Of a DNA stretch of 56,208 bases, positions 12,056-54,039 are shown one piece after another. A model generated the notes under the pieces. It worked only from the letters and a program-made list of their open reading frames with translations. It searched no databases and had not been told where the DNA came from. Origin of the DNA: Cytophagales bacterium (GTDB lineage Bacteria; Bacteroidota; Bacteroidia; Cytophagales; Bernardetiaceae); the NCBI GenBank assembly GCA_013299045.1, contig JAAFJX010000025.1:1-56208 (forward strand), given 5' to 3'. Position 1 is the stretch's first letter; every line of letters begins with the position of its first letter. The translations under genes were made by a program, and so were the position numbers.

Positions 12056-13981
12056 ATGCTACGCATCCTATTTTTTTCTTGTATTTTTTTTTATGCTTTT
12101 ATGCTTTATTCAGATTTATATGCTCAGCAAAAAGATAGCCTCAAAACCCAGCTCCTTGCTGAAGTAACTGTTTATAGCACCTCGCTACGTCCTGGTTTTA
12201 AAGTTGAGACTCTTGACACTCTTGTTTTACAGCGCTCTCAACAACAAGAACTGAGTACAGTTTTAGCTGCTCAAAGTCCTGTATTTATCAAGTTTTATGG
12301 TGCTGGCAGCTTGGCTTCTTCGGCTTTTAGAGGTATGTCTTCTACGCACACGCAGGTTTATTGGAATGGGCTTCTGCTTAATTCACCTATGCTTGGGCAA
12401 TTAGATTTTTCTTTAATTCCAATGGCCGCCACAGACCACGTGGAGATTCTCTACGGTGCTGCCGCCTTGCGTATGGGCAATGGTGGTTTGGGTGGCGGCA
12501 TACATCTAGAAAATAAACCTTGCTTTGATGAAAAAGTATTTCAAGGCCAGGTTCGCCTTTTAACGGCTAGCTTTGGCACCTACAAAGGCAGTTTTCAGAG
12601 TACTGTGCGCTATAAAAAAATACTTTGGCAGCAAAAATACTTTTTGCGTCAGGCAGACAATAACTTTTCTTTCCGATTTAACGGCCAAGATATGCGCCAA
12701 CAAAATGCCTTTTTGAGGCAAGTCGGCTCAATACAAGAACTTTATTACAGACCAGATAAGCGCCAAACGTGGGCGCTGCGTGTATGGCAACAACAAGGCT
12801 TCAGGCAGCTACCTGCTTCAATACTTGTTGGTAAAAGTACTGAAAAACAAGATGATAGAAGTCTGAAAATTCACTTAGAACATCAGTACAGAAGCCCCTA
12901 TAAACTAAATTATCAGCATAAAACTTGGCTGGCCTACACGTCTGACCGACTTGTTTACCAAAACCCAGCGCAAGACCAAAAAAGTAGCAACGCCGTTCAT
13001 GCAGCGCAAGGCCAAACCTTACATTCTCTGGATTTCTCTGATGCCTTTTCTCTGCGGGCAAGTTTTGCTTTGGCGCATGAACAGGTACAAAGCAGCGCTT
13101 ATGCACAAACGCAAACACGGCCTCAAGTACACACAGAGGCACATGGGCGATGGGGAAGTCTTGAGTGGTCTGCCGTCATTCGGCAAGAGCATATCCGCAG
13201 CCATGAGGCTATGTACCGAATGCCCACTACAGGCGCATTGGGCTGTTTTATAACTATTTTACAACAAGATTTGAGCCGTCTGAATCTACAAATGCAAGTT
13301 GCTCAGAATGCGCGCTACCCTACCCTTAACGACCGTTTTTGGCCAATTTCTGGTAATGAAGAATTGCTTCCTGAACGTAGCCAAGGTGCTGAAGTACAAA
13401 TAGATTATAAGAAATACATGGCTAAAAAAACCCAAAAGCCTATTCTTGAGGTTCAAATAACTGCTTATAATAACCGCGTTGAAGATTGGATACAGTGGCT
13501 ACCAACCGTTAGTGGTTACTGGAAACCACAAAACCTGCGCCAAGTGGCTGCCAGAGGTCTTGAGGCAAACATCAAAAACAGCATAAACTTTACAGAAAAA
13601 CACGCATTAAAGATAAGTGTGCTTTATTCTCTGAATAGCAGTATCAATACAGCGGCTTATACTCAAAACGACAAGGCGGTGGGCAAGCAGCTCATTTATA
13701 CACCATTGCATAATATAAAAGCGCGGATTGATTATTTGATTCTTGAAAAATGGCACTTCAATTTACAAGCGCAATATTACAGCCGTCGTTACACAACTTC
13801 TGATAACTCTAGCTACTTACCCGCATACATACTCTTTGATACCAACGCAAGTTACCAGATATCTAAACACCTGAAAATCAACACTACAATAGATAACATA
13901 CTTAACTTTCAATACCAATCCATAGCCTTTTTTCCAATGCACGGGCGTAGATTTGAGTTGCAAGTGGTTTGGAGCTTTTAG
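12056..13981 (+). CDS. TonB-dependent outer-membrane receptor
   Basis: The 641-residue product begins with a Sec signal peptide ending near LYAQ. The plug domain follows directly (LAEVTVYSTS, FIKFYGAGSLASSAFRGMSS, QVYWNGLLLNSPMLGQLDFSLIP, VEILYGAAALRMGNGGLGG), with no carboxypeptidase-like repeat before it. A compact 22-strand barrel follows, and the protein ends in the aromatic HGRRFELQVVWSF typical of outer-membrane proteins. The small size and plug wording recall BtuB-like receptors for cobalamin or iron complexes, but no riboswitch or transport gene is adjacent, so the ligand is unknown. Its stop codon lies only 4 bases from the stop of the opposing histidine kinase gene, which leaves no room for a separate terminator. 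Confidence 0.88.
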   Translation: MLRILFFSCIFFYAFMLYSDLYAQQKDSLKTQLLAEVTVYSTSLRPGFKVETLDTLVLQRSQQQELSTVLAAQSPVFIKFYGAGSLASSAFRGMSSTHTQVYWNGLLLNSPMLGQLDFSLIPMAATDHVEILYGAAALRMGNGGLGGGIHLENKPCFDEKVFQGQVRLLTASFGTYKGSFQSTVRYKKILWQQKYFLRQADNNFSFRFNGQDMRQQNAFLRQVGSIQELYYRPDKRQTWALRVWQQQGFRQLPASILVGKSTEKQDDRSLKIHLEHQYRSPYKLNYQHKTWLAYTSDRLVYQNPAQDQKSSNAVHAAQGQTLHSLDFSDAFSLRASFALAHEQVQSSAYAQTQTRPQVHTEAHGRWGSLEWSAVIRQEHIRSHEAMYRMPTTGALGCFITILQQDLSRLNLQMQVAQNARYPTLNDRFWPISGNEELLPERSQGAEVQIDYKKYMAKKTQKPILEVQITAYNNRVEDWIQWLPTVSGYWKPQNLRQVAARGLEANIKNSINFTEKHALKISVLYSLNSSINTAAYTQNDKAVGKQLIYTPLHNIKARIDYLILEKWHFNLQAQYYSRRYTTSDNSSYLPAYILFDTNASYQISKHLKINTTIDNILNFQYQSIAFFPMHGRRFELQVVWSF

Positions 13982-32353: not shown

Positions 32354-34513
32354 TTACTCCTGAATCAGCAAATCGAGTGTACGTCTTTCAAGGCTAGCCG
32401 CCAAGATTTCTACTTCTACGGCATCTCCTAGATTGTAAATATGCCCACTTTTGTTGCCCACTACCTGCAAACGCGCTTGGTCAAAACTGTAATAGTCGTG
32501 CTTTAAATCCGTTAGACGGCACATTCCCTCACAAAGCGTGTCTTTAATTTCTACATAAATGCCGCGGTCTGTAAGCCCCGTGATAATCCCTTTAAAGGTT
32601 TCGCCAATGTGTTTCTGCATAAGCTCTACCTGCTTATACTTGATGGAAGCGCGTTCTGCATCGGAGGCGCGTTTTTCCATTTCGGAAGTGTGTTTACATT
32701 GTGCTTCTAGTTGTTTGAGCGGCTGCAAGGGCTGGTTGTGCATATAAGCCCAAATCAATCGGTGCGCCATCATGTCCGGATAGCGGCGAATTGGCGACGT
32801 AAAGTGGGAATAATGCGAGAAGGCAAGCCCAAAGTGCCCTATGGTCTCAGGCGAATACTTGGCCTTGGCCATAGAGCGAATAGCGAGTTGCTGCAAGATA
32901 TTTTGCTCAGGCTTACCCTCACACGCTTGCACTAACTCATTAAGACGCTCCGCCAAATTGGGCATATCGGCACTAAAGCGGAATTTATAACCAAATTTTT
33001 GTGCATAAATGCCCAAACTGTTCAGCTTATCGTTGTCGGGCAGGTCATGAATCCTATAAACCATGGGATTCTTATCCTTGCCTTCATTGTAATTATAGAC
33101 GTATTCTGCCACACCTTTATTGGCCAAAAGCATGAACTCCTCAATGAGCTTGTGTGCATCTTTGCGCACTTTAGGCACTACCTTGATGGGCGTTCCATCT
33201 TTCTCTAAAAGAAACTTGACTTCTATGGTTTCGAAGCCAATAGCACCTGCTTTAAAACGTTTTTTGGTAAGCAAATGCGCCAAATCATTGAGCAAATTAA
33301 TTTCTTTGGCCAAATCACCCTTCTGGGATTCAATGCGCTCTTGGGCTTCTTCATAGCTAAAACGTCGCTGCGAATGAATCACGGTGCGGCCTATCCAAGT
33401 GTGTAAAATTTCGGCCTGTTTGTTCATTTCAAAGACCACCGAAAAAGTGAGCTTATCTTCGTTTGGGCGCAAGGAACAGAGCTTGTTAGAAAGTTTTTCG
33501 GGCAGCATCGGCACAACCCTGTCCACCAAATAGACTGAAGTGGCGCGTTTGTAGGCTTCGGTGTCCAAATGCGTTTCTTCTTGCACGTAGTGTGTTACGT
33601 CCGCAATGTGTATGCCTATTTCGTAGTTGCCATTTTCTAACTGTTTGATAGAGAGCGCATCGTCAAAGTCTTTGGCATCAACGGGGTCAATCGTGAAGGT
33701 GAGTGTTTTCCGAAAATCTCGTCTTTTGCTGATTTCTTCCTCCGGAATCTCCTCTGAAATATGCTCTGACTGACTCAAAACTTTTTGAGGGAACTCGGTG
33801 CTGAGGCCAAATTCATAGATAATGCTGTGCATTTCGGCATCATGCTCGCCACTTTTGCCAAGAATTTTAACGATATCGCCGAGCGGATTTTTTTCGTCAT
33901 CGTCCCACGAGAGAATTTCCACCAAAACTTTGTCGCCATGCTGGGCTTTATGCAAATTTTGGGTAGGAATAAAAATGTCTTGGTGCATTTTTCTGAAGTC
34001 TACTATCACAAAGCCTATTTCGCCAACGCGCTCCAGCTTACCGACAAAGGCAGTTTTGGCTCTGCTCAAAATTTCTAACACACGGCCTTCGTGCTTGCCT
34101 CGCTCACGGCGGCGCATGATTTCTACACGAACCGTGTCGCCGTCTAGGGCGTGCATCAAGTTACGCTGGAACACAAATAAGTCCTCTTCTAAGCCTTCAC
34201 ATACAACGTAGGCGTGGTCGCGACTGACCATATCCACACGGCCTTCGTAAGATTTACTGTGGTGTTGTTTTTTGGTGGTGTAGCGGTCTTCGTCTGGTTT
34301 CTTGATAAGGTCTTGTTCGGCCATGCGCTCCAGAATAATTCTGAAATCATTGACGTTGGACACTCTGATACCACCTATATTTTTAAAAATTTGCCGAGAG
34401 GAAAAGGCGCTAGAAAAATTGTCATCTAAAAATCCTAAGATACTGGCTACTATGCGTTTAAGGCTGTCTTTGTTGGGCTGTTTACGGCTAGGCTTTTGCT
34501 TTTTATGCGTCAT
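32354..34513 (-). CDS. rnr: Ribonuclease R
   Basis: RNase R is a 3'-to-5' exoribonuclease that degrades structured RNA. The 719-residue protein contains a winged-helix N-terminus (KRIVASILGFLDDNFSSAF), two cold-shock folds, the RNB catalytic domain with the metal-binding run TIDPVDAKDFDDALS, IHIADVTHYV and FSHYSHFTSPIRRYPDMMAHR, and a C-terminal S1 domain (GETFKGIITGLTDRGIYVEI). It starts at the ATG at 34513, two bases after a run of nine C (minus strand). The promoter is at 34551-34558. Confidence 0.96.
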   Translation of the reverse strand: MTHKKQKPSRKQPNKDSLKRIVASILGFLDDNFSSAFSSRQIFKNIGGIRVSNVNDFRIILERMAEQDLIKKPDEDRYTTKKQHHSKSYEGRVDMVSRDHAYVVCEGLEEDLFVFQRNLMHALDGDTVRVEIMRRRERGKHEGRVLEILSRAKTAFVGKLERVGEIGFVIVDFRKMHQDIFIPTQNLHKAQHGDKVLVEILSWDDDEKNPLGDIVKILGKSGEHDAEMHSIIYEFGLSTEFPQKVLSQSEHISEEIPEEEISKRRDFRKTLTFTIDPVDAKDFDDALSIKQLENGNYEIGIHIADVTHYVQEETHLDTEAYKRATSVYLVDRVVPMLPEKLSNKLCSLRPNEDKLTFSVVFEMNKQAEILHTWIGRTVIHSQRRFSYEEAQERIESQKGDLAKEINLLNDLAHLLTKKRFKAGAIGFETIEVKFLLEKDGTPIKVVPKVRKDAHKLIEEFMLLANKGVAEYVYNYNEGKDKNPMVYRIHDLPDNDKLNSLGIYAQKFGYKFRFSADMPNLAERLNELVQACEGKPEQNILQQLAIRSMAKAKYSPETIGHFGLAFSHYSHFTSPIRRYPDMMAHRLIWAYMHNQPLQPLKQLEAQCKHTSEMEKRASDAERASIKYKQVELMQKHIGETFKGIITGLTDRGIYVEIKDTLCEGMCRLTDLKHDYYSFDQARLQVVGNKSGHIYNLGDAVEVEILAASLERRTLDLLIQE

Positions 34514-34601: not shown

Positions 34602-34919
34602 GTTGTCCCTTAAAAAGTACATTCAATAGAGGCAAGCTAAATTTAAGGAGAATGGTTCACCAATTTCGGGAACATATTGACGACCTTTGATAGACTTCTC
34701 TTCTCTACTTTTTGCTTTGATGCAGAACTGAAGCATGAGCTGAAAGTTCCGACCGTAGGGCATAGCAAAAAAATTAAGCCTCGCAAAAGGCCAATCTAGA
34801 TGAAAAAGCACCTTTTTTCATCTAAAACAGCGAATGGCTTTTTCTCTGATTCATTCTCTCACAAAACATGATTGCACAGAAAATCTCACCCTCTGACCTT
34901 TGAGGCATTCGCTTTTGTC
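34602..34919 (-). mobile_element. Repeat family A, copy 3, truncated by RHS core remnant
   Basis: Begins with the inverted end GTTGTCCCTTAAAAAGT, preceded by TATTTA, and follows copy 2 through GCAGAACTGAAGCATGAGC, AAGTTCCGACCGTAGGGC, CAGCGAATGGC and GCATTCGCTTTTGTCTG. There it stops abruptly, and the next base belongs to an RHS core copy. The other end of the element is not found in the window. Confidence 0.8.
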
Positions 34920-35142
34920 TGCTGGATTATTATCAAACCCATAATAAGGCGACTGTTGCGCAAACTTCTCGCCCAGCGGGTCTATGCTTGTTGTCTGAAC
35001 CCTGATTTTTAGGATTAAAGGATTACCATGATTCTTAAAATCCTACGAATCTTAATCCAGACTATTTTTATCAAAGAACGTTTGCAGCGTAAAGTTATAA
35101 AAAGTTTTTCGTACTTGGTTAAGGATACAGAAGAAATATTTT
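34919..35142 (-). pseudogene. RHS core remnant 5, interrupted by element E
   Basis: Read on the minus strand from 35140, the codons continue in frame from the Rpn stop codon: NISSVSLTKYEKLFITLRCK, the same residues as in the RHS genes at 42.9 and 40.7 kb. The sequence then enters element E (34993-35062) and resumes with SIDPLGEKFAQQSPYYGFDNN before meeting the family A element at 34919. There is no tip behind it. Confidence 0.8.
34993..35062 (-). repeat. Short palindromic element E, copy 2
   Basis: Seventy bases from GTCTGAACCCTGATTTT to CAGAC with matching GTCTG/CAGAC ends. The interior repeats AAAGGATT and TCCTACGAATCTT-type words. It matches copy 1 at 42767-42852 but lacks one internal unit of about 16 bases. 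Confidence 0.75.
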
Positions 35143-36016
35143 ACTTTTTTTCGTTCAGTTTGCGCAAAAGCTCCTCTATGAGTTGCTTTTGTTCACTAAG
35201 CGCTTGGTCTTTTTCACTAAGCGCTTGGTCTTTTTCACTAAGCTCTTTGGTTTTATCTGCCAACTCTTTAAGTAGTTTTCTCTCTTTTTCTTCAAACATC
35301 GCATTTACAGTACGCCAGGCCTCTTGTTCATCTTCTATTAGCTTGCGCTCTTCGGGTTCTGTACCCACATAATGCAAAATATCCGTAATTTCTTTAACTT
35401 CTTCTAAGTCTGGTTTGTGGTGATACTTCTTTGTAATTTCTTTATTGTCTGTAAAATTACTTTGCTCAAAAACACTCAACAATTTATCCAAGCGGGTTTG
35501 ATAACGGTCTGTGATACGCCGCGCCTGTACCACAAAACAATCATGTGTCAATTTTTCTATAAACTCGCTCTTTTGAGTGATGGTGGTTTTATTGATGAGG
35601 TCGGTGTATTGGCGCTCTACTCTGACGCAGGCCGTTTCAATATCGGGCAGTTTGAAGCCCAAAATGTAAATCGTGGTGATGGGTAGAACAACACTTTCGT
35701 CATTGATTTTGTCCTCCTTTTTGTACTGCTCGGCCAAATAATTCCTAAAACGCATCAAATCAATTTGATTTTTTGCTTTTTGAATTTCTATCAAAACTTT
35801 TTTAGATTCGCCTGTTTTTGTCTTAATGATAGCGATAAAATCCAGCCTTAGAACTGCAAGACCAGCCAACTCATCTGTGTAAGTAAACTCTTGTGGTTTA
35901 ACTTCTATGCTTTCCACAAATGTATCCAGCATGGTCCCAATAAAAAACTTAGCCACACGCTCATTTTCCATGAGCCGCTTAAACACCACATCGTATAGCG
36001 GATTCGCAATAATCAT
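35141..36016 (-). CDS. Rpn/PD-(D/E)XK-type recombination-promoting nuclease (transposase-related)
   Basis: The 291-residue product belongs to the PD-(D/E)XK 'Rpn / PDDEXK_2 putative transposase' family: NPLYDVVFKRLMENERVAKFF, then Asp59 in LRLDFIAII and the Glu-x-Gln-Lys of VLIEIQKAK (Glu77, Gln79, Lys80), which form the nuclease core. E. coli members nick or cut DNA and stimulate RecA-independent recombination. The C-terminus is a coiled coil with tandem heptads, LSEKDQA twice and then LSEQKQL, encoded by 21-base repeats. It has its own -7 box (36039-36046), unlike the toxin-immunity genes around it. Its stop codon abuts RHS core remnant 5 in the same frame. Confidence 0.88.
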   Translation of the reverse strand: MIIANPLYDVVFKRLMENERVAKFFIGTMLDTFVESIEVKPQEFTYTDELAGLAVLRLDFIAIIKTKTGESKKVLIEIQKAKNQIDLMRFRNYLAEQYKKEDKINDESVVLPITTIYILGFKLPDIETACVRVERQYTDLINKTTITQKSEFIEKLTHDCFVVQARRITDRYQTRLDKLLSVFEQSNFTDNKEITKKYHHKPDLEEVKEITDILHYVGTEPEERKLIEDEQEAWRTVNAMFEEKERKLLKELADKTKELSEKDQALSEKDQALSEQKQLIEELLRKLNEKK

Positions 36017-36038
36017 AGCTCTTGTTCCTTTTCAAGGA

Positions 36039-36046
36039 CAAAGATA
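36039..36046 (-). promoter_or_regulatory. -7 box of the Rpn-like gene
   Basis: Minus-strand TATCTTTG, 22 bases before the ATG at 36016; no clean -33 partner. Confidence 0.45.
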
Positions 36047-36265
36047 CGGCTTTTTTGAGCAGTTCGGTGCTAGAAACAAAGAAATATTTTGGTGTTTTTT
36101 TCATGCTCTTTTGGCTTGAACCAAAAGAACCAAAAGTTCAAGACTTTGCAGAAATGGACGCTAAAATTTGACTGAGAGGCAGAGCAAATTTAACTCACTT
36201 CGTTCAAACAGAAATTTGCTAAAATCTGCCCCTCACTCAAATTTCTTAACGCTATTTCTGCTAGG

Positions 36266-36670
36266 TCAAGGGGAATATTGAAAGTTGGGTAGAAAGTCAT
36301 CAAAAAAGCTTTTATATTGATATGGTATTGGATGGCTATTCTTCAGCTTGATATTTTTGCATTTGTTCTCTTCGTACCATCTAAGCCAAACCTTTTTGTC
36401 ATTTTGGAAAACGTCAGGTGTATAGCTTATAACATAGTGTCTCATCTTGTAAAATGATACAGGGGCATAATTCGATATAAAAATTAAGGTGCTTATGAAA
36501 GTTGAGTCGGGTGAACGACCATAGATATTTGCTCCAATATAATCAATTTTATCAAAAAACGTTTTTTTGAACTTTTTATTCTCGCGACACCGCGTGGATA
36601 ATCCACTCATTTTTGACAATGAACAAGAAACTATGAATGGAAATATCATTGCGATAATTATTTTTTTCAT
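36266..36670 (-). CDS. Probable immunity lipoprotein 4
   Basis: A 134-residue lipoprotein (MKKIIIAMIFPFIVSC, lipobox VSC at Cys16) of unknown family; the mature part is basic and aromatic (YSPDVFQNDKKVWLRWYEENK-like). Its ATG overlaps the stop codon of RHS tip 4 by the classic ATGA, so the pair is translationally coupled. Position, size and membrane anchoring fit an immunity protein against tip 4 acting outside the cytoplasm. That role is inferred from RHS locus logic and has not been shown for this sequence. Confidence 0.6.
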   Translation of the reverse strand: MKKIIIAMIFPFIVSCSLSKMSGLSTRCRENKKFKKTFFDKIDYIGANIYGRSPDSTFISTLIFISNYAPVSFYKMRHYVISYTPDVFQNDKKVWLRWYEENKCKNIKLKNSHPIPYQYKSFFDDFLPNFQYSP

Positions 36671-37380
36671 TTGACTTTTGTTTTTGTTACTTTAATAGCG
36701 CCCGACGACAGAGACTCTATTGTTTGAATTGTTTTAGTTCCATCTCTTTCAGCGAAAGTATCGATACCATTCTGTGGGACGTTCTCTGACCTTATATTGC
36801 CATTAATTAAACATTCTGTCTTTATTCCCTGTCGGTGTGCTCTACTAGCAAGTTTACCATCACTACCCATTGGGTAAACTCCTTTTACACCACCTCCTTC
36901 AGCTTTCATTTGCTGCTCTTTTATTTCATGGCCCAATGCACCCGGGCTTGTTCCACCACCTGGCCCGGCTTCATCAAAAGCAGCAATATCTTTCATATCT
37001 ATCTGATTAGTAACAATATTACCTACCTGAACATTAGGGTCGGAGGATACTGTTTCAATCTCAACGGTAGCTTTACTGTTTATAGCATCGTTCAATGCAT
37101 TCACAAACGCATATTGTTTACTAGACATAGAAGGTGCGCCATCAAATTGTTCCATTCCTGTGCTTACTAAAGTGACTTTTCCTTTATCGTCTACATGAGC
37201 ATCATAGAAACCGCCTGTACCCTTATTTACTTGGTCTTTGAATGCTTGAACGGCAGTACCTGTAACTATCAAATCAACTGGCTTCCGTCCACTCGGGTCG
37301 CTTTTTCTTGCTGGATTATTATCAAACCCACAATAAGGCGACTGCTGCGCAAATTTCTCTGCCAGCGGGTCAATGCTTGT
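36667..37380 (-). pseudogene. RHS C-terminal tip 4 (probable toxin), frame-shifted from its core
   Basis: From 37380 the frame reads TSIDPLAEKFAQQSPYCGFDNN, the end of an RHS core, then SDPSGRKPVDLIVTG and a unique tip of about 225 residues ending at 36667. The tip is Gly- and Glu-rich and holds GALGHEIKEQ (HExxE) and RAHRQG, a pattern that could bind a metal as in zinc-dependent hydrolases. I do not recognise the family. The core part upstream (37381-37556) is out of frame because four bases (CCAC) present in the other copies are missing at 37380/37381. Without recombination the tip has no start in its own frame except a TTG at 37272. Confidence 0.65.
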
Positions 37381-37556
37381 CTGCCTGTTTGTAGGTCTAG
37401 ATTTCTAGCGCCGTGGTCGTTCCAGAATAGCCCAAACTCATCTAGTTTTTCTTTGGCGTTGTATTGGAATTTTTGCTCGGCGCTGCTGCTGGTGCTCTGC
37501 TGGTCTTTTTCTTCTAGGCCTACCATGTTCTGCCCAAAGGGATAGTAGTGGTTTTG
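37275..37556 (-). repeat. RHS core copy 4 (with 4-bp deletion)
   Basis: Matches copies 2 and 3 from NHYYPFGQNMVG down to DNNPA, with a 4-base deletion at 37380/37381. Upstream it is joined, at 37556, to non-RHS sequence behind immunity gene 3. Confidence 0.85.
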
Positions 37557-37594
37557 TCGATTCGTTTCGTTATGATACTTCGTAACTTATTTAA

Positions 37595-38028: not shown

Positions 38029-39162
38029 TTAACGTTGTAATTTAGGGCCGTTATCTAATTTTTGCATTTCTGCCATTGCTTTCTTATCTGATTCTATTTG
38101 TTCAGCACTTGTACGATCATTTGCATTTAAATTTTTAAAAATTTCTGTGAGTTGATTATACTTTTTACTAGATAATTTCCCTCTAGACACATTCCAATTA
38201 CCATCCTCGTTCTTAGTGGCAACAAAGAGTCCGTTTGTTTTAAACTCACTAAGAACTAAGTTTGCTAATTCATTCATATCGGCATCTTTATTAGATTCAC
38301 CAATATTACGTCCAACTTCATTGTTAAGCAAATCTACGGTCTGGTCAGCTTCAGCTATATTTTCAAAACTTCTTTCATTCAGGTCAGTAAAAGGATTCGC
38401 TTCGTGCGCATTTCCTGCTTCCTTGGCCGTTACGCCGCCAAATTCTGCTGCAATTGTGGCCTGCCAAAGAGTATGTCTAAAGGCACCATTTTCACTCCCT
38501 TCGTCTTGCTGTCCTTTTTTTGACCCAAATAAAACCTCGCCGCGTGTTGCAAATCGCGTTGCATTTGTAGATATATTGCTTTCCCCTTTAGTTACGCCCA
38601 AGCCTATTCGTAAAGATGCAATAGGATGTCTTAATCCAAAACCAATATAACGTGTTGTTATGCTTGCTGCATAATATCCTGCGCCTGGCGGGTCTTGAGC
38701 ACTCTTCCCCGTCGGGTCGCTTTTTCCTGCCGGATTATTATCAAACCCACAATAAGGCGACTGTTGCGCAAACTTTTCTGCCAGCGGGTCTATGCTCGTC
38801 CACCTGCCTGTTTGTAGGTCTAGGTTTCTAGCGCCGTGGTCGTTCCAGAAAAGCCCAAACTCACCTAGTTTTTCTTTGGCGTTGTATTGGAATTTTTGTT
38901 CGGCGCTGCTGCTGGTGCTCTGCTGGTCTTTTTCTTCTATACCTACCATGTTCTGCCCAAAGGGATAGTAGTGGTTTTCTTGCACCACACGCACACTCGG
39001 CGATTTATAAACACCCAAACTCACGGAATCAAAGAACGTTTTGTAAACAGAACCAGAACCCACCACACGAACGCGGAAAATACCAGAATCTGTTTGACAA
39101 CGTAAAGTTATAAATAATTTCTCGTATTCCAGCAAAGATTTGGAAGAAATATTTTGGCGGGG
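38029..39162 (-). CDS. RHS core copy 3 with tip 3 (probable toxin, NAFRH/AHE-type)
   Basis: The frame runs from immediately after the stop of immunity gene 2 (39163). Residues PRQNIS...YEKLFITLRC and then NHYYPFGQNMVG, HGARNLDLQTGRW, SIDPLAEKFAQQSPYCGFDNN and AGKSDPTGKSAQD are RHS core. The following 240 residues are a separate tip with NGAFRHTLWQATIAAEFGG and GNAHEANPF, a His pair pattern that recalls the DUF6973-type domain found in phage and RHS proteins. No ATG precedes the core, and the only possible starts are TTGs such as 39135, so it is probably a silent cassette. Tip 3 and immunity 3 form an adjacent pair. Confidence 0.75.
   Translation of the reverse strand, partial: PRQNISSKSLLEYEKLFITLRCQTDSGIFRVRVVGSGSVYKTFFDSVSLGVYKSPSVRVVQENHYYPFGQNMVGIEEKDQQSTSSSAEQKFQYNAKEKLGEFGLFWNDHGARNLDLQTGRWTSIDPLAEKFAQQSPYCGFDNNPAGKSDPTGKSAQDPPGAGYYAASITTRYIGFGLRHPIASLRIGLGVTKGESNISTNATRFATRGEVLFGSKKGQQDEGSENGAFRHTLWQATIAAEFGGVTAKEAGNAHEANPFTDLNERSFENIAEADQTVDLLNNEVGRNIGESNKDADMNELANLVLSEFKTNGLFVATKNEDGNWNVSRGKLSSKKYNQLTEIFKNLNANDRTSAEQIESDKKAMAEMQKLDNGPKLQR
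38700..39162 (-). repeat. RHS core copy 3
   Basis: About 460 bases matching 40258-40725 with scattered substitutions. It starts immediately after the immunity 2 stop codon and ends at the DPTGK codons where tip 3 begins. Confidence 0.88.
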
Positions 39163-39618
39163 TTATAAGTTATTAAACCAGTCTTTGAATCTTTTGCGAA
39201 GATGCCAGGGATACTGATTTATTATGCCAATGGCAATAAAACCTACAAAACTGAAGAACAATAAACTAGTAAACTCACGCCATAAAAACCTTTCTAAAGC
39301 ATACGCATCATCCGAAGGATAAAAACAAGATGGGTCTTCAGGATTGTATTTAATGTTCAAAGAATCCCCTAGCTTATGCTTCGTCATTATCCAATTCCAT
39401 GAGGTATGAAAAGACCTTTTATAGCTTTGATTAAACAAATCGTGCCTAAGAAACAAACCATCACTCTTTAGGTAGTAACAAGCACGATTAGATTCGGTTG
39501 CATTGCAATAACAAGGAAGTATACCATCATGAACTTCGTACATACACCATGACAAAAGTACACTTATGATTGCTGTCGTTTTTAGAAAAAGCCCCACACG
39601 TTTATTATCCATAATCAT
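39163..39618 (-). CDS. Probable immunity membrane protein 2
   Basis: The 151-residue protein has two membrane segments (TTAIISVLLSWCMY near residues 13-27 and LLFFSFVGFIAIGII near 118-133) with a cysteine-containing loop (CYCNATESNRACYY). The family is not recognised. Its ATG overlaps the TGA of RHS tip 2 (ATGA), so the two are translationally coupled. A membrane-spanning immunity protein would fit a toxin acting on or across the membrane. Its TAA stop is directly followed, in the same frame, by core copy 3. Confidence 0.65.
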   Translation of the reverse strand: MIMDNKRVGLFLKTTAIISVLLSWCMYEVHDGILPCYCNATESNRACYYLKSDGLFLRHDLFNQSYKRSFHTSWNWIMTKHKLGDSLNIKYNPEDPSCFYPSDDAYALERFLWREFTSLLFFSFVGFIAIGIINQYPWHLRKRFKDWFNNL

Positions 39619-41468
39619 TTCATAAATTGATGTGTATGCCTAAGACCAACTTCTTGCTTTGGAAAACTTGCAACTTTGTACTCTAACCCCATACGGTCGG
39701 TAAGTGCTACTTTAAAGTCCCAGTCTGATTTATCATTGAATGAAAACTCTGCTTTGATAGGCCCCACAATAGCAGACTGAGAAAAAATCTTTGTGTTTTC
39801 AAAGAACTCAGTATCATTTTCTACTTTCTTCGATGAGATAACAAAGCCAACTTCGTGGTCGCGTGTACTCCCCGTTACATTTACTGATGCACCTGCTGTA
39901 AGCAAATTAACTTCTGTACTTGCTTTTCCTTCTACTTTCACAAACCCATCAGTAGGGGTATTACCCATAAACGCAACACTAATTGAACCCTTGAGAGCAA
40001 CGCCTGGATTGCCTGCAATAGGACTATAATGTTGATTTTTATTTGAGTTTGCTGTTTTTAGTTTCTCTTCTTTCGCTTTTGTTGGCAATACTCTTGTCCC
40101 TTTTTTGGAGTCGTGAGAAACTGCATTATAGGAAATCTGACCATACACACCCGCACTCTTAAAGGGTGCTTTTACTTCGCCACTTGATGACCCTTGCATT
40201 TTATTGAAAACCTCTCTTGTTGTATTTGTCCATGCGGTTTTGAGTTTTGTCCACCAATCCTCACTACTCTTCCCCGTCGGGTCGCTTTTTCCTGCCGGAT
40301 TATTATCAAACCCACAGTAAGGCGACTGCTGCGCAAACTTCTCTGCCAGCGGGTCTATGCTTGTCCACCTACCCGTTTGTAGGTCTAGGTTTCTAGCGCC
40401 GTGGTCGTTCCAGAATAGCCCAAACTCATCTAGTTTTTCTTTGGCGTTGTATTGGAATTTTTGCTCTTCGCTGCTGCTGGTGCTCTGTTGGTCTTTTTCT
40501 TCTATACCTACCATGTTCTGCCCAAAGGGATAGTAGTGGTTTTCTTGCACCACACGCACACTCGGCGATTTATAAACACTCAAACTCACGGAATCAAAGA
40601 AGGTCTTATAACCCACACCACTGCCTACAACCCTTAATTTAAACATAGCCGAATCCTCTTTGCACCGTAAAGTTATAAAAAGTTTCTCGTACTTGGTTAA
40701 GGATACAGGAGAAATATTTTGGCGGGGTGCTAGTTTTTGGTCTTGGTAGATTTCCAGGTAGGCGCTAAGGCTGTCGTTTTGGTTCTGTTCGGGTACTTGG
40801 GTGTTTTGTTCGGCTTTTTTCCTCTTACCCACCAAAAACGGCAAAAAACTAAACATATTGAGGTGTCTGCGGCGCTCTTCGCCCACGCGCTGGCTCGTTT
40901 GCAGGGGCGGCACGCTCAGTATCAGCCCTAACTTTTTGCTTTCTTCTTTCTGGACTATGGTCGGCTTTTGGGTCTGCTCTTTCTGCGCCGTTACGAAGGC
41001 CATAAAACTGAGACTGTCCCCCCTAAAAAGTTTCAGCTCGCGCTCTAATGCCCCTGTTACTAGCCCGCTATAAGCCCCACGCATCGCCATACCCTTGTGC
41101 CGCGCCTCAGCCACACCCCTAAAAAGCGTGTCCTCTTTGGCGGCGCTATCCTTCTCAAAACTCAGATGGTGCAGCTTGCCGCCGTCCTTGCTGGTGTAGG
41201 GCTGCCATATCAGGCGAGAGTTGCCGAGGTGGTCTAGGTACTCGTATTGCGGCACAAGCGGATAGCTCACACTGGCCTCGTCTGGCAGGGGTGGCACCAG
41301 CCTGCCCTCTGGCATACGCAAAAAAGAGAGCGTTCCGTTCTCATAAACAGCCTCGCCTACGTATTGCGTCAGGTCTGCGCCCGACTGCTTCCTGACCTTC
41401 GTGCCGTTTGCGAGGTAGGTGTTGTCTATCGTGTTCGTGTTGATGCTTACAGACTTAGTTTTTACCAT
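39615..41468 (-). CDS. RHS core copy 2 with tip 2 (probable toxin), silent or truncated
   Basis: The 617-residue frame begins at an ATG inside the end of immunity gene 1. From the sixth codon it repeats the expressed RHS core (SVSINTNTIDNTYLANGTK) with 726 bases differing by one base. The core is intact through YEKLFITLRCK, NHYYPFGQNMVG, EEKDQQSTSSSEEQK, HGARNLDLQTGRW and SDPTGKSSEDWW. The tip (about 210 residues) is beta-rich and Gly/Ser-rich (AGASVNVTGSTRDHEVGF, PIKAEFSFNDKSDWDFKV) and unknown. It lacks the signal peptide and two thirds of the core, so it would need recombination with the gene at 46 kb to become secreted. The translational overlap with immunity 1 could also express it as is. 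Confidence 0.8.
   Translation of the reverse strand: MVKTKSVSINTNTIDNTYLANGTKVRKQSGADLTQYVGEAVYENGTLSFLRMPEGRLVPPLPDEASVSYPLVPQYEYLDHLGNSRLIWQPYTSKDGGKLHHLSFEKDSAAKEDTLFRGVAEARHKGMAMRGAYSGLVTGALERELKLFRGDSLSFMAFVTAQKEQTQKPTIVQKEESKKLGLILSVPPLQTSQRVGEERRRHLNMFSFLPFLVGKRKKAEQNTQVPEQNQNDSLSAYLEIYQDQKLAPRQNISPVSLTKYEKLFITLRCKEDSAMFKLRVVGSGVGYKTFFDSVSLSVYKSPSVRVVQENHYYPFGQNMVGIEEKDQQSTSSSEEQKFQYNAKEKLDEFGLFWNDHGARNLDLQTGRWTSIDPLAEKFAQQSPYCGFDNNPAGKSDPTGKSSEDWWTKLKTAWTNTTREVFNKMQGSSSGEVKAPFKSAGVYGQISYNAVSHDSKKGTRVLPTKAKEEKLKTANSNKNQHYSPIAGNPGVALKGSISVAFMGNTPTDGFVKVEGKASTEVNLLTAGASVNVTGSTRDHEVGFVISSKKVENDTEFFENTKIFSQSAIVGPIKAEFSFNDKSDWDFKVALTDRMGLEYKVASFPKQEVGLRHTHQFMK
40730..41455 (-). repeat. 726-bp direct repeat, copy in cassette 2
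   Basis: Identical to 42942-43667 except one base (40755 C versus 42967 T), a constant offset of 2,212 bases. Identity ends at the immunity 1 stop codon on one side and near the codons for KLAPRQN on the other. Confidence 0.93.
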
Positions 41469-42093: not shown

Positions 42094-42760
42094 CTCTTTT
42101 TTGCTTATTTCTCTCACCAATTAACTTTTCTTGCGTTTTAATTTTCTCTAATAATTGTTTCTGTTCCTTATTCAATTTGCCCCCATTAACACTTTTTTCA
42201 TCATTAACTTGCTGTTTTAGCTCATCTAATTCCTCTTTAGTGCGAGGTAAATCATCATATGGTTTTTCAGTACGCTTCTTTGAGTATAAAATTCCATTTC
42301 CGCTGACAAGATTTGTTACTGAAGTTATGGTAACAGCACCACCGTATAGCGTTCCTGCAAGTGCGGTAGCAGCGCCCACTGTTACTGTTACTGGTGTACC
42401 TGTTACAGCCAAAACAGCCCCACCACCTTCACTACCACCAGCGATGTTCATGCCAATTACCACAGAGGCAGCATCGCCAGCCATTAGACCCTGGTTGTAA
42501 TCTTGTCTGGCCTCTATACCTCTGGAACGTATATCTCTTTTTTCGCCGCCGCGAAGATTAAAAAGATTAAACGTAAGATTATCTACAATGGCAGTCAGAA
42601 AGCCTCTTAGCCCATCAAAGATGTCTCTCCCATCAGGGTCATTAAACCTCACCGGATTATTCCCCAGCCCCGTGTATGGACTCATGGGCGCAAACTTCTC
42701 CCCCAGCGGGTCTATGCTTATCCATCTGCCCGTTTGTAGGTCTAGGTTTCTAGCGCCGTG
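42074..42760 (-). pseudogene. RHS tip 1 with core end, cut off from its gene by element E
   Basis: From 42760 the frame reads HGARNLDLQTGRWISIDP and continues to PYTGLGNNPVRFNDPDGRD, the end of an RHS core, and then a tip of about 190 residues: a Gly/Ala/Thr-rich membrane-like stretch (GAATALAGTLYGGAVTITSV) and a highly charged Lys/Glu end. The codon before 42760 is TAG, part of the element junction. The first internal start is an ATG at 42685, which would give a core-less fragment. It should be the original C-terminus of the RHS gene at 42811-46083; the roughly 60-residue core segment between the two parts has been lost. Confidence 0.75.
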
Positions 42761-42766
42761 CTAATT

Positions 42767-42852
42767 GTCTGAACCCTGATTTTCAGGATTAAAGGATTAC
42801 CATGATTTTTTTATCCTACGAATCTTAAAATCCTATAAATCTTAATACAGAC
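42767..42852 (-). repeat. Short palindromic element E, copy 1
   Basis: Eighty-six bases from GTCTGAACCCTGATTTTCAG to CAGAC, with matching ends and a tandem internal unit of type AAAATCCTAYRAATCTT. Its inner words (CAGGATTAAAGGATTACC) resemble short repeats common in Bacteroidota genomes. It supplies the stop codon of the RHS gene at 42811. Confidence 0.8.
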
Positions 42853-45800
42853 TGTTTTTATCAAAGAACGTTTGCAGCGTAAAGTTAAAAATAATTTTTC
42901 GTAGTTGGTTAAGGATACAGAAGAAATATTTTGGCGTGCTACTAGTTTTTGGTCTTGGTAGATTTCTAGGTAGGCGCTAAGGCTGTCGTTTTGGTTCTGT
43001 TCGGGTACTTGGGTGTTTTGTTCGGCTTTTTTCCTCTTACCCACCAAAAACGGCAAAAAACTAAACATATTGAGGTGTCTGCGGCGCTCTTCGCCCACGC
43101 GCTGGCTCGTTTGCAGGGGCGGCACGCTCAGTATCAGCCCTAACTTTTTGCTTTCTTCTTTCTGGACTATGGTCGGCTTTTGGGTCTGCTCTTTCTGCGC
43201 CGTTACGAAGGCCATAAAACTGAGACTGTCCCCCCTAAAAAGTTTCAGCTCGCGCTCTAATGCCCCTGTTACTAGCCCGCTATAAGCCCCACGCATCGCC
43301 ATACCCTTGTGCCGCGCCTCAGCCACACCCCTAAAAAGCGTGTCCTCTTTGGCGGCGCTATCCTTCTCAAAACTCAGATGGTGCAGCTTGCCGCCGTCCT
43401 TGCTGGTGTAGGGCTGCCATATCAGGCGAGAGTTGCCGAGGTGGTCTAGGTACTCGTATTGCGGCACAAGCGGATAGCTCACACTGGCCTCGTCTGGCAG
43501 GGGTGGCACCAGCCTGCCCTCTGGCATACGCAAAAAAGAGAGCGTTCCGTTCTCATAAACAGCCTCGCCTACGTATTGCGTCAGGTCTGCGCCCGACTGC
43601 TTCCTGACCTTCGTGCCGTTTGCGAGGTAGGTGTTGTCTATCGTGTTCGTGTTGATGCTTACAGACTCTACCAGGTTCAGGTGGTTGTAGCTGATTGGAT
43701 TGATGCGCTTGTTGCGGTCCCTGAGCTGGTTGCCGCGTGCGTCGTAGGTATAATCATTGGCAGGGCCAGTGTAGCGGTCTTTGAAGTCGTTGGCCAAGAA
43801 GCCCAGCCCGCTGCCCGTTATATCATCTATTTTTTCTAGTTCATTAGAAAAAACCTTGTAGGAGTATTCCAAATCATCTACCTTCCTATACTCATTGCCT
43901 GTGCTGCCGTCCACAAGGGCCAGGCCGTTGCGTTTCATAGTCAAGATGTTTCCGTTCACATCATAACTCAAATCGTAGAGGGAGTAGTTGCCGGGTGCAT
44001 AGGTAGGCGCTCCTATGGCTGTGCGTCCTTGATTCCAGGGGCCAAGTAGGCCGTCCACTGCCAGTTCCGCAAAGTCGGCTTTGAGCAAGCGGTTGGCTCG
44101 GTCATACTGGTAGCCATAGCTGCGTGGCTTCATGTCGGTACGCGAAATCCATTTTACGCCGCTCAAGTTGCCGTTAAAGTGGTTTTTGTTGTAGCCATAG
44201 TCATAGAAGAGTTCCATGCCGAGCAAGTCTAGCGGGTAATTATTAAGCGTAGCCTGGTTAATGGCCGTCAGCCAGCCCCGTATGTTGTAGCGGTAGTCAA
44301 TGTCCTGGCCATAAGCCACGCCCCCATCTTCCGAATGCAACTTTTTATTAATCATCTGGCCGAGTTCGTTGTAGGTATAGCGGGCCAGCGTCCAATCTTT
44401 TTTAGGCTTTGCCATGTACCAGAGGGAAGCCTCTATGCGCTCTAGCCTGCCGCGGAAGCTGCTATAAACGTTGCGTTCTAGACGGCGCACCATGCGTGTA
44501 TCCGTAGCGCGCACGTAGCGGTGGTAGTAGTCCTTGCTGAGCAGTTTGCCATCAAAGGCGAGTTCCAGTACGGTCAAGTCTAAGCCCAATTCGTGTTCTG
44601 CTTTCAGTTCTACTGGGCGCAGGCGCTCGTCGTAGTGCGTATAGCTTTTGCGGAAAATGCCAGGCCCCGTACTGCCCAGTACCTTCACTTTTTGCCAGGT
44701 GCTGAGCCCCTTCGTACTAATAGGCTTTTGGGCAGTGCTTTTCCATACATCGCCTTCGCTACCAGCCGTTAAGCCGCTGTAGTCGTCGTAGTATTGCACC
44801 GTCAGCACTTCTAGGTCATAGGTGCTGCCGTCGTGTATCGGGAAGCTCTCGTTCGTATAGAGGTGCGGGCTGCTGTTGCGTCTTTCGCCAAAAACCGTAG
44901 AGGCTTCCGCATCAATGCGCATATTGTCTATGTCTCTGGTCGTTTTGCATAGTCCCGTCATGATGGGTCTGTTGAGCGCATCATACTTGGTATATTCCCA
45001 GTCCACACCTGGTTGTTTTTGCATCACGGGTCTGTCGCGCCCATCAAAGATAATATGTATAGAGGCATCCATACCAGGCAGGCGCTTGGCAGCCAAACGG
45101 CCACGTTGGTCATAGCGGTACTGAAAAGCCAAATTTGTTATGAGTGTAGGCAAAGTAGCAGAACCCAAAGAAAGCGTAAAGCGTGGTGGCAGCACAAAAC
45201 TCAGCTGGCCAAGGTCGTTATACACGTAGTAGGTATCGCCTGTGCCCTCTTGGCGCTGCATAATCATTTGGCCTTCCTTGTTCGTAAAAGTCCAAACAGT
45301 TTTGTTGTCTTCGTCGCGGCTTTCTGTAATCAGGAGTTGGTTTGCCGCAAAAAAACCACGCTCACGCAAAGAGGCTGTGTGCGGTGCCAGCCCAGACGCA
45401 CCAGCGCCTCCGCTTAGCGTTACGCTGTAGTATCGGACAGCATCTGCCACTGTATTGGTTCTTGTTTCGGTGCTCTGAATATTGCCGCTAAGCCGCATCC
45501 AACTTTCGCCAGGGGCTGCCTGCTCCAGGACGCGGTTCAGGGGCGAAGCCTCATAAACAGACTCTGAAAAGGGCACTCCCGTTCCCGCAATGACGGCGAA
45601 TCGGCTTGTATGCGGGCTATAAAAGGCGCATTGTTTGTCAAAAGCGTCCGCAACAAAAAGGTTGTCTATAGGCGTAGCGCTTGGGTCTGGTGTGGCTTCC
45701 GTAAAAGGCAAATACTGCTTGGGCGTTCGGCCAAAAACGTCGTAAACGATGGGCTGCACAAGGGCCTTGCCGCTGGGTGAGTAGGCCAAAGAAAGGTTCT

Positions 45801-46083
45801 GGATAGGTCTGCCGAAGCCGTCTAGGTAGGCAATATCCACCTCTCTGTGTCCGCCATGCGTCAGGGTGTTTACATCGGTCGTGGTTTGCACGCCCTCAAT
45901 AAGTACCGTCGTACTCTTGACGTAGTTCAGGCTACCAGTGTGCGAGGGCGTACCGCTACAATCCATGAAAGGAGGCAGGTCGCTCAGCCAGTTGGGCAGG
46001 TTTTCGGGTAGCACGGTCGTTTGGGCTTGCACCGTGCCCGCAGCCCATAAAAATACCAAAGCAAAAACGAAACAGCAACGCAT
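42811..46083 (-). CDS. DUF6443-type RHS repeat protein, C-terminus replaced by element E
   Basis: Starting at the ATG at 46083 (MRCCFVFALVFLWAAGTVQAQ, a signal peptide), the 1,090-residue product has an N-terminal DUF6443-like domain (YVKSTTVLIEGVQTTTDV, DIAYLDGFGRPIQNLSLAY, YDVFGRTPKQYLPF), then many YD repeats (YNDLGQLSFVLPP, YRYDQRGRLAAKRLPG, YDYDRANRLLK-like) and the beginning of the RHS core (YVGEAVYENGTLSFLRMPEGR, YEYLDHLGNSRLIW). RHS proteins fold a shell that encloses a C-terminal toxin released on delivery. Here the core is cut after YEKLFLTLRCK, and the last 20 residues are read from element E, so no tip is attached. It follows the shell gene by 48 bases, in an apparent operon. Confidence 0.88.
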   Translation of the reverse strand: MRCCFVFALVFLWAAGTVQAQTTVLPENLPNWLSDLPPFMDCSGTPSHTGSLNYVKSTTVLIEGVQTTTDVNTLTHGGHREVDIAYLDGFGRPIQNLSLAYSPSGKALVQPIVYDVFGRTPKQYLPFTEATPDPSATPIDNLFVADAFDKQCAFYSPHTSRFAVIAGTGVPFSESVYEASPLNRVLEQAAPGESWMRLSGNIQSTETRTNTVADAVRYYSVTLSGGAGASGLAPHTASLRERGFFAANQLLITESRDEDNKTVWTFTNKEGQMIMQRQEGTGDTYYVYNDLGQLSFVLPPRFTLSLGSATLPTLITNLAFQYRYDQRGRLAAKRLPGMDASIHIIFDGRDRPVMQKQPGVDWEYTKYDALNRPIMTGLCKTTRDIDNMRIDAEASTVFGERRNSSPHLYTNESFPIHDGSTYDLEVLTVQYYDDYSGLTAGSEGDVWKSTAQKPISTKGLSTWQKVKVLGSTGPGIFRKSYTHYDERLRPVELKAEHELGLDLTVLELAFDGKLLSKDYYHRYVRATDTRMVRRLERNVYSSFRGRLERIEASLWYMAKPKKDWTLARYTYNELGQMINKKLHSEDGGVAYGQDIDYRYNIRGWLTAINQATLNNYPLDLLGMELFYDYGYNKNHFNGNLSGVKWISRTDMKPRSYGYQYDRANRLLKADFAELAVDGLLGPWNQGRTAIGAPTYAPGNYSLYDLSYDVNGNILTMKRNGLALVDGSTGNEYRKVDDLEYSYKVFSNELEKIDDITGSGLGFLANDFKDRYTGPANDYTYDARGNQLRDRNKRINPISYNHLNLVESVSINTNTIDNTYLANGTKVRKQSGADLTQYVGEAVYENGTLSFLRMPEGRLVPPLPDEASVSYPLVPQYEYLDHLGNSRLIWQPYTSKDGGKLHHLSFEKDSAAKEDTLFRGVAEARHKGMAMRGAYSGLVTGALERELKLFRGDSLSFMAFVTAQKEQTQKPTIVQKEESKKLGLILSVPPLQTSQRVGEERRRHLNMFSFLPFLVGKRKKAEQNTQVPEQNQNDSLSAYLEIYQDQKLVARQNISSVSLTNYEKLFLTLRCKRSLIKTVCIKIYRILRFVG
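42942..43667 (-). repeat. 726-bp direct repeat, copy in the main RHS gene
   Basis: Partner of 40730-41455 with one mismatch. Recombination between the two removes 2,212 bases and keeps the reading frame (distance between the frames is a multiple of three). Confidence 0.93.
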
Positions 46084-46131
46084 AGTACTCAAAGGTTTGT
46101 CAGTCCAGAAAAAAGAAGGTGGGTTTATTTT

Positions 46132-52306: not shown

Positions 52307-53770
52307 ATGCGCCTGCTTGTTCTCCTTTTTTTGATATGCCTGTCCGCCTGGCCAATAAGCGTTGCAAATGCCCTTTCAGAGCAAGATAAGCGCGTTTATG
52401 CAGACATCATGGCGCTCCGCCAAACGCCCATTGTTTGGCAACTCAAGCAAAGAAAAGATGCAGATGCTGGTTTTTTGCTCGCTTTCAAAGATGCACTTTA
52501 CCTTATTTTTACAGAAGATTACAGCCAGTACGAGGTTCATCTGGCGCGGATAGAGCAGCAAATAGACCTGCAAAATATGCGAAAAAACACCTCTGAAAAG
52601 GCTTTTTTTTGTTATACAGAACTCCTAACGCTTTCTGCTTTGGTCAAGTTGCGCTTTGAAAACAAACTGGCCGCTATCTGGGCGCTCCGAAAGGCGTTTC
52701 AGGAGCTCGAGGTTTTTAGGCAAAAATACCCTAAGAGCCATCTCCCACTCAAAAACTTAGGCGCGTTAAATATTTTAACAGCTTCTACGCCAGCTCGTTA
52801 CCAATGGGCTCTCAAACTGATTGGCTTACAGGGCAACAATAAAAAAGGTTTGGCTATGTTAGATTCTGCCGCACTCGGCGCAGACCCACGTGCACTTCAG
52901 GCCGCGCTCTATAAGGCATTGATAAAAACTTACATGACCAAAAACAACGCGGCTAATGAGGTGGAGAAACTCATGAAAGCCTATCCAGAGCATATTCCTG
53001 TCCTTTTTGCGGCAGGCGTGGTTGCTTTAAAAAATAAGCAAACGGATAAGGCACAACAACTTTTTCTTAAACTGATTCTTAACGCTGACAGAATCCCTTA
53101 CGCACACTACCTACTAGCAGAAACTTATCTATATGGTCTTGAAACGCAAAAAGCCAAGGTGCATTACACCCTTTTCTTGAAGATGTACAAAGGCAAAAAT
53201 TACCGCAAAGATGCGCATTTTAAATTTTTTTTAGCCTTATATCTTGAAAACCCCGTTTTAAGCCTTTCTGAGCGCAACAGTCATGCCCAGCTCATCAATA
53301 GCAGCGGCCTGCAAGCCACCGAACAAGACCAGTACGCTGCCAAAGTGGGTGTAAATTTAGTGAACTTTAGCGCAAATTCGCTGATAAAGGCTCGTTTACT
53401 TTATGATGGCGGCTATTATAGCAGGGCTTTGATTTTGCTAAATAGCACCGAAACAACTCAATGGGCGGCATCTAGCCCACAAATGGTAGAGTTTTATTAC
53501 CGCAAAGGGCTTATCTTTTTGAACACCGGCCAAACCGAAGAAGCCCGTAGCGAATTAGAAAGAGCCTATCTGCTGGGCAAAGAACTCCCGCACTTCTACG
53601 CAGCCAATGCCGCACTTCAACTGGGCGTAATCTGCCAAAACCATTACAAAGACCGAGAAAAAGCCATTTTCTATTGGCAAGCCGTGTTGAATACTCCCGA
53701 GCATGAGTACAAGAACACGTTAGACGATAAAGCAACACAGTATCTCAAACAAATTGCCAAACAAAAGTAA
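52307..53770 (+). CDS. Secreted TPR-repeat protein
   Basis: The 487-residue product starts at the ATG at 52307 (MRLLVLLFLICLSAWPISVANA, signal peptide), 4 bases after murE, so the two are probably co-transcribed. The mature part is all helical with degenerate TPR units (PVLFAAGVVALKNKQTDKAQQ, PYAHYLLAETYLYGLETQKAK, VEFYYRKGLIFLNTGQTEEAR, YAANAALQLGVICQNHYKD). No catalytic motif is seen. It could be a scaffold in the envelope, possibly linked to the cell wall by its neighbour, but that is only guilt by association. Confidence 0.8.
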   Translation: MRLLVLLFLICLSAWPISVANALSEQDKRVYADIMALRQTPIVWQLKQRKDADAGFLLAFKDALYLIFTEDYSQYEVHLARIEQQIDLQNMRKNTSEKAFFCYTELLTLSALVKLRFENKLAAIWALRKAFQELEVFRQKYPKSHLPLKNLGALNILTASTPARYQWALKLIGLQGNNKKGLAMLDSAALGADPRALQAALYKALIKTYMTKNNAANEVEKLMKAYPEHIPVLFAAGVVALKNKQTDKAQQLFLKLILNADRIPYAHYLLAETYLYGLETQKAKVHYTLFLKMYKGKNYRKDAHFKFFLALYLENPVLSLSERNSHAQLINSSGLQATEQDQYAAKVGVNLVNFSANSLIKARLLYDGGYYSRALILLNSTETTQWAASSPQMVEFYYRKGLIFLNTGQTEEARSELERAYLLGKELPHFYAANAALQLGVICQNHYKDREKAIFYWQAVLNTPEHEYKNTLDDKATQYLKQIAKQK

Positions 53771-53789
53771 AGTTCCATAAAACGAAAAA

Positions 53790-53810
53790 AATCCACCTTG
53801 GGGGTGGATT
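53790..53810. terminator. Terminator between the TPR gene and the tRNA
   Basis: AATCCACC (53790-53797) pairs with GGTGGATT (53803-53810). On the minus strand the stem is followed by seven T, so it terminates the tRNA transcript. On the plus strand the T tract is weaker, but it can end the TPR gene too. Confidence 0.8.
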
Positions 53811-53822
53811 CTTAACTTGTAG

Positions 53823-53895
<73 letters not shown>

Positions 53896-53918
53896 TCGTT
53901 GTTGCGTTAATCGCGGTG

Positions 53919-53949
53919 CAAAGGTAAGATGATGTTTTTACTTTGCAAA
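53919..53949 (-). promoter_or_regulatory. Promoter of the initiator tRNA
   Basis: Minus-strand TTTG (53949-53946) and TACCTTTG (53926-53919) are spaced by exactly 19 bases. The -7 box ends 23 bases before the tRNA 5' end. Confidence 0.7.
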
Positions 53950-54039
53950 TGTTTTGATACTTTTTTTAGAATATATTTTTGAGTATGCTTATTGGCGCTC
54001 AAAAAATAGATGAATAAGCCGTCCCTCAAAGTATATATA

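Follow-up and report, generated by a model that had tools for sequence, protein, structure and literature searches.

An Rpn-like nuclease-type gene that recurs within the RHS cassettes of a Cytophagales genome

In the draft genome of a Cytophagales bacterium (GCA_013299045.1, here G000; 79 contigs, 4.06 Mb) a gene for an Rpn-like protein, called rpn below, recurs next to RHS toxin-gene cores: RHS core is found at or next to the rpn stop codon in 13 of 15 assembled 3′ ends, at three joints and in two RHS families, core A and core B. The genes are thus not scattered through G000 with no link to RHS arrays, and the association put forward in the original prediction holds in this genome. One copy is located in the window, the 56,208 nucleotides of contig JAAFJX010000025.1 (C68) that were analysed as a whole. 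We propose, as the probable explanation, that an RHS core took up the gene, that recombination then copied it, and that a functional and selected rpn travels as a passenger of the array.

The array of the window runs on the minus strand from a long RHS gene (42811-46092), whose core A and DUF6443 domain were recognised by sequence and domain match, through core remnants, tips and small genes to core remnant 5. Rhs_assc_core matches of 39.8 and 40 bits (cut-off 32.5) and the succession of core remnants that follows the long RHS gene, with tips and small genes that differ from one remnant to the next, confirm an RHS array with displaced cassettes. Residues of core A are numbered on window:40260-41468 (403 aa) and those of core B on a 450-aa stretch of contig C28. 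A displaced RHS tip at 38029-39135 contains a DUF6973 domain. Further along the minus strand are core remnant 4 (37278-37577, by core similarity), a displaced toxin tip (36667-37272) and the candidate immunity gene of that tip (36266-36670), the last two assigned by position only, followed by rpn (35141-36016) and by core remnant 5 (34908-35142), made of core-A residues 251-270 and 369-396 with a non-core piece of about 90 bp between them. This end of the array adjoins a gene (32354-34513) named RNase R-like from its sequence appearance. The original prediction had rpn occupying the immunity-gene slot; rpn indeed adjoins core remnant 5, but the slot already has its candidate immunity gene, and rpn is an additional gene between that gene and the remnant. 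The piece of about 90 bp (34985-35080) that splits core remnant 5 bears 'GGATTAAAGGATT' motifs; 52 bp of it are found as a 92% copy at 42759-42810, just downstream of the long RHS gene, similar DNA is present in the C69 and C40 remnants, and the piece is possibly a small repeat element.

The window gene is an open reading frame of 291 aa with the motif D59...E77-x-Q79-K80, whose four residues are invariant in alignments of 16 and 42 rows and form a PD-(D/E)XK-type pattern of the E-x-Q variant. Relatives from other species align with the protein over most or all of its length. Searches with the window protein gave no match in NCBIfam at E 0.1, no relevant match in Pfam at E 10 and nothing relevant in PADLOC, and solved structures searched by sequence were matched through the coiled-coil part only. 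One of nine relatives scanned, L118 (29-31% identical), matches the 'Rpn family' model TIGR01784 with 26.2 bits and E 6.5e-6, below the cut-off of 52.1, and the window protein itself is below the curated TIGR01784 and PF04754 cut-offs. Since the curated Rpn family score is not reached, the label used here is Rpn-like and not Rpn; of the earlier assignment as Rpn-type, the motif and the distant relatives stand, the match to a Pfam or NCBIfam model of that kind does not, and the nuclease activity is a prediction from sequence. The structure model of the protein (pLDDT 85.3, pTM 0.77) gave no Foldseek match at E 0.001. A second structure comparison placed the nuclease EndoMS in the top row (Z 5.8, 105 residues, rmsd 3.2) and EcoT38I, McrBC, BspD6I, MspJI and BamHI in lower rows amid unrelated proteins, e.g. 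acetyl-CoA carboxylase, all of these below the trustworthy level. The −7 promoter motif of Bacteroidota is TAnnTTTG. By its fit to this motif, TATCTTTG at 36046-36039 on the minus strand is a putative −7 box of rpn, which is as far as the claim that the gene has its own promoter can be carried.

A core word, AAAATATTTCTT, flanks the window rpn on both sides. Its 5′ copy (CCAAAATATTTCTTT; 36078-36092, minus strand) forms the left edge of the rpn unit, the point at which homologous units elsewhere emerge from RHS core, and its 3′ copy, an exact AAAATATTTCTTC at 35130-35142 on the minus strand, overlaps the rpn stop codon. As had been predicted, the TAA at 35143-35141 joins core remnant 5 in frame, the next codons reading N I S S V S L T, to be compared with 'QNISSVSLT' of the RHS core. 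The stop of the small gene 39163-39618 joins the next core likewise, with PRQNIS, and there the word (39143-39155, minus strand) is present with no rpn, as it is, in exact form and on the same strand, at 40708-40720 within the core 39615-41468 and at 42920-42932 within the long RHS gene; rpn-free cores thus exist in the same window. The 11-base AGAAATATTTT, said to lie on both sides of the gene, is exact at 35132-35142 and 36080-36090 and is otherwise found, in a scan of the window, only in the core copies at 39145, 40710 and 42922. Allowing one mismatch, it gives 8 matches against 3.8 expected, a number reached by 3 of 100 shuffles and weak statistics for the window alone, and the genome-wide data strengthen the case. 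The 13-base AAAATATTTCTTC has 17 exact matches in G000, and the word is beyond chance because 16 of them are in core-A or rpn joints (the contexts in C63 and C76 being judged by eye) and one, in C70, is elsewhere. As a direct repeat around rpn it is 13 bp and exact in C69b1, 12 bp in the window and 12/13 in C69b2, and no direct repeat of this kind is found at C73 or at the core B joints. The p values for flanking direct repeats (window 0.008, C69b2 0.05, C73 0.14) refer to a null of simple letter shuffling, which is lenient for A+T-rich DNA. Upstream of 79 related loci, drawn from the best 80 among the matches listed (75 of them with at least 100 nt), no exact copy of the 12-base word is present on the rpn strand, and one mismatch allows a single match (L207) against 0.34 expected. 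The word being missing there, we rejected the idea that it is native to rpn, and it is therefore core DNA that travels with rpn. At the locus L145, in a species with no RHS core match, the exact word AAAATATTTCTT is present immediately behind the rpn stop codon but on the other strand, possibly by chance.

Besides the window copy, G000 contains four full-length copies that are 84-86% identical, one of about 55%, and fragments mostly at contig ends; we infer that the assembly breaks at rpn because the copies are near-identical. Most copies are known only as ends, and 5′ and 3′ ends cannot be paired. Three copies are on contig C69: C69a (12201-13205), C69b1 (53031-53993) and C69b2 (55693-56718). 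A 3′-end pattern finds 14 ends, and the divergent C74 copy brings them to 15. Four ends (the window, C69b1, C69b2 and, by eye, the right end of C76) are joined at core A residue 251/252, seven (C12, C41, C58, C60, C66, the left end of C76 and C77) at core B residue 331, and two (C5, by eye, and C69a, at C69:12198) at about core B residue 322, while no recognised RHS core adjoins the 3′ ends in C73 and C74. Intact core-B copies continue straight across these joint points. Six of the seven copies at residue 331 bear a short core piece only, and the five that were printed share the DNA beyond; therefore these copies are mostly duplicates and few of the joints are independent. Three joints only are too few for many independent insertions. 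Contig C60 (4343 bp) opens within the 3′ portion of an rpn and closes within the 5′ portion of a second one; between the two lie two core-tip-small-gene sets, identified by position. The clearest view of a joint is given by 8623-12976 of L029, on C69, where two core-rpn-core-tip units of RHS type stand in tandem.

At the other side of the gene 14 5′ ends were inspected. In six of them (C69a, C69b1, C69b2, C3, C16 and C40) core A continues through AAAATATTTCTTC and is followed by the rpn leader; these core pieces have six different starts, 336, 118, 73, 67, 55 and 48 nt upstream of the word's last base, and the joint with rpn is identical. C11, C38, C57 and C66 have a common 53-bp stretch in place of the core and keep the word, the window keeps the word with no core before it, C73 has it with 2 mismatches, and the 5′ ends in C60 and C74 are without it. 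Two types of leader, TTTCCTGACC and TTCCTTATC, occur behind both core A and the 53-bp stretch: core A with the first type in C16, C40, C69a, C69b1 and C69b2 and with the second in C3, the 53-bp stretch with the first in C11 and C66 and with the second in C38 and C57. All four combinations of left context and leader exist, therefore joining took place at the word or at its edge, and the word is a real joint, although conversion tracts stopping where homology stops would produce the four combinations too. A scan of three regions (the window, C69b1 and C73) found no terminal inverted pair common to the three; C73 alone has one 14-nt, 86% inverted pair near its ends. Also on C3, at 1445-1550 of L032, a decayed rpn leader with a left context of the 53-bp type is followed by no rpn gene and is a possible scar of a lost copy.

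The copies are mosaics. C69b2 equals the window allele for about 85 nt around the start and then equals C69b1 for about 700 nt with no difference, and C69a and C69b1 are identical across 265 codons in spite of lying about 40 kb apart. With core A at its left and core B at its right, C69a is a chimera of the two RHS families. Between the window and C69b the rpn bodies have about 80% identity, with dS of 1.1-1.3, whereas the DNA that leads from the 3′ end of rpn to the core remnant is mostly 92-98% identical, and 79-87% in the last windows of the comparison. As the body is more diverged than its flank, either rpn was swapped at the window site or its flanking DNA was homogenised there. In the available text of PMC5350276, variants of rpnC in enterobacteria are likewise more diverged than their flanks. 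Of 21 pairs compared over 249-265 codons, 10 yield a dN/dS, with values of 0.02-0.08; these ratios are rough since dS exceeds 1 in eight of the ten, and among the other pairs ten have saturated dS and C69a-C69b1 is identical. The rpn copies look to be under purifying selection.

In the reading that we favour, an Rpn-like PD-(D/E)XK-type nuclease gene would have been captured within the core of an RHS toxin gene at the 13-bp core word that now flanks both sides, and would have multiplied along with the displaced RHS cassettes. Recombination between arrays, through the rpn body, the core or the word, would then have spread it to no fewer than 13 RHS places of the two families, giving a number of cassettes the order core remnant, tip, small (immunity) gene, (core fragment), rpn. 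Selection would keep the protein intact, most likely for an activity of its own, that of an Rpn-type self-regulated toxin or a phage-defence gene with a tail that differs per copy, and perhaps rpn is kept as a self-stabilising toxin-antitoxin. The near-identical copies would incidentally act as long portable blocks of homology that let heterologous arrays recombine, so that rpn would be a passenger and not the driver of the array.

The 3′ part of rpn contains 21-nt repeats (7 aa, SEKDQAL type; 35183-35257 in the window, minus strand) whose number and order differ among copies: all 12 readable tails are distinct, even those of C69a and C69b1 despite their identical bodies, in a count that excludes C74 (a 55% paralog), the C76 ends and the copies known from the 5′ end only. 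By analogy a private toxin-antitoxin per rpn copy is thinkable. It is possible, though we hold it unlikely, that RHS cassettes of this lineage carry their own Rpn-type nuclease-antitoxin module with private tails. Such a module would lock the silent cassettes in place by punishing their loss, and it would also provide breaks and long stretches of identity where cassettes meet, through which arrays of the two families exchange parts. Chromosomal integrons contain toxin-antitoxin cassettes, and such a binding of RHS arrays would be comparable with these. We regard as improbable an array-stabilising role pure and simple, in which rpn would encode a toxic nuclease and an internal small C-terminal antitoxin, and the private tail would punish loss of the cassette so that silent cassettes are retained. 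The available part of PMC10327210 reports E. coli Rpn proteins as toxin-antitoxins with hypervariable C-terminal repeats and, for RpnC, that a single extra repeat abolishes neutralisation by the small form, and the tails of G000 are distinct too; yet the repeats here are of 7 aa and not of 4 aa, and the tail also varies in C73, outside a recognised array.

A different role, which the original prediction had in mind, would be that of a recombination factor, with Rpn cutting or nicking DNA in or near the array and promoting the short-homology joining by which RHS cassettes are added and moved. According to the accessible text of PMC5350276, RpnA of E. coli has nuclease activity, and RecA-independent recombination increased when RpnA to RpnD were overexpressed; the joint at the word is one of short homology and shows all four combinations, and PMC5361080, in the part available, proposes homology-facilitated illegitimate recombination for such arrays with no known enzyme for it. 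But PMC5350276 also describes little, if any, sequence specificity of RpnA, ordinary homologous recombination accounts for the spread, and in the other species examined rpn was never seen near RHS. Of 18 relatives, six gave rpn-like matches (13 rows) and 12 contain RHS cores, never on the same contig, and some are rich in cores and have no rpn match (G005 with 21 cores, G010 with 18); the genus-mate G001 (84% complete) likewise has RHS cores and no rpn match. Flanks of up to 8 kb around the 79 related loci (43-77% identity; best 80 among the matches listed) contain no match to core A or B by tblastn with the two cores plus three motifs, a check that diverged RHS could escape; one YYPFG motif in the flank of L146 is a chance occurrence and not RHS. 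Through 40 of these 79 loci 31 genomes were reached, 17 of which hold RHS cores; of the 69 rpn-like rows in the 17, one (G038:C20) is on the same contig as an RHS core, at a distance of about 19 kb, and none is within 10 kb, a negative across species that is limited by fragmented assemblies, which may hide adjacency. A general role of Rpn as a factor of RHS arrays is so far unsupported. Of the refuting conditions named with the original prediction, random scattering of Rpn genes fails in G000, and absence of the word from relatives applies to the other species, as the exact 12-base word is missing upstream of the 79 related loci on the rpn strand. A conserved rpn-RHS link across species was thus rejected; the link seems peculiar to G000 and most likely arose in its lineage. 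On balance we regard a recombination factor as rather improbable.

A general target-site duplication for rpn was not found, 41 related loci being inconsistent in this respect. Three of these loci (L136, L157 and L210) have flanking direct repeats of 21-26 bp with the lowest possible p of 0.002, a few others reach 0.02-0.03, and the three contrast with the lack of target-site duplications reported for rpn genes in the available part of PMC5350276. A homing-like selfish nuclease, whose gene would enter rpn-less RHS cores through repair of the cuts that it makes at the word, would fit the identical nucleotide joint of the six core-A copies with different core starts, the presence of unoccupied cores and the finding that rpnC was introduced twice at a single enterobacterial locus, which the text available from PMC5350276 takes as a hint of site preference, but it is very improbable given that core B is occupied elsewhere (residues ~322 and 331), at points where the intact core-B stretches that were printed lack the word, that unoccupied copies of the word persist a few kb away in the window, and that the related loci have no common flank.

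Capture and copying by recombination, our preferred reading, touches the open question of how cassettes are gained, retained and exchanged in RHS arrays and in polymorphic-toxin arrays of other kinds. Here a kind of gene with reported recombination-promoting and toxin-antitoxin activity is itself a cassette part, with many copies, defined joints and unoccupied cores, and the roles of driver and stabiliser are directly testable in one organism. G000 is in this sense a good test case for array growth, stability and part swapping.

The H-repeat (H-rpt) elements in the Rhs loci of E. coli are a mobile-element-type gene with a DDE transposase. Both they and rpn are mobile-element-type genes tied to Rhs; in G000 no terminal inverted repeats are common to the three regions scanned, and the gene is of PD-(D/E)XK type. 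With Rpn proteins (YhgA-like, COG5464, PF04754, TIGR01784), as characterised in the available parts of PMC5350276 and PMC10327210, the window protein shares the PD-(D/E)XK-type motif, the variable repeat tail and a patchy multi-copy distribution, and with rpn genes (PMC5350276) the presence of diverged variants at one place between flanks that are more alike. It differs in being too divergent for the curated models and in repeats of 7 aa against 4 aa, and its joints do not vary and fall within RHS cores; for the known rpn genes, varying ends and a lack of target-site duplications are reported in the text available (PMC5350276). No report of a link between rpn (or transposase_31) and Rhs or polymorphic toxins was found in the open-licence literature, where 'Rhs' and 'recombination-promoting nuclease' occur together only in a pathogenicity predictor (PMC13218381, in the part available). 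As in the RHS and polymorphic-toxin arrays of PMC3482391 and PMC5361080, so far as their available text goes, a long toxin gene is followed by silent remnants, tips and immunity genes, with recombination mosaics; XerC/D-type recombinase genes are noted there beside some polyimmunity loci. RHS arrays and Rpn proteins are thus both known, and the Rpn-like gene as a repeated RHS cassette part appears to be new: unlike known RHS arrays, those of G000 have a nuclease-type gene inside the cassettes, where it stands between the small gene and the core remnant that follows, and this gene is present many times and in both RHS families.
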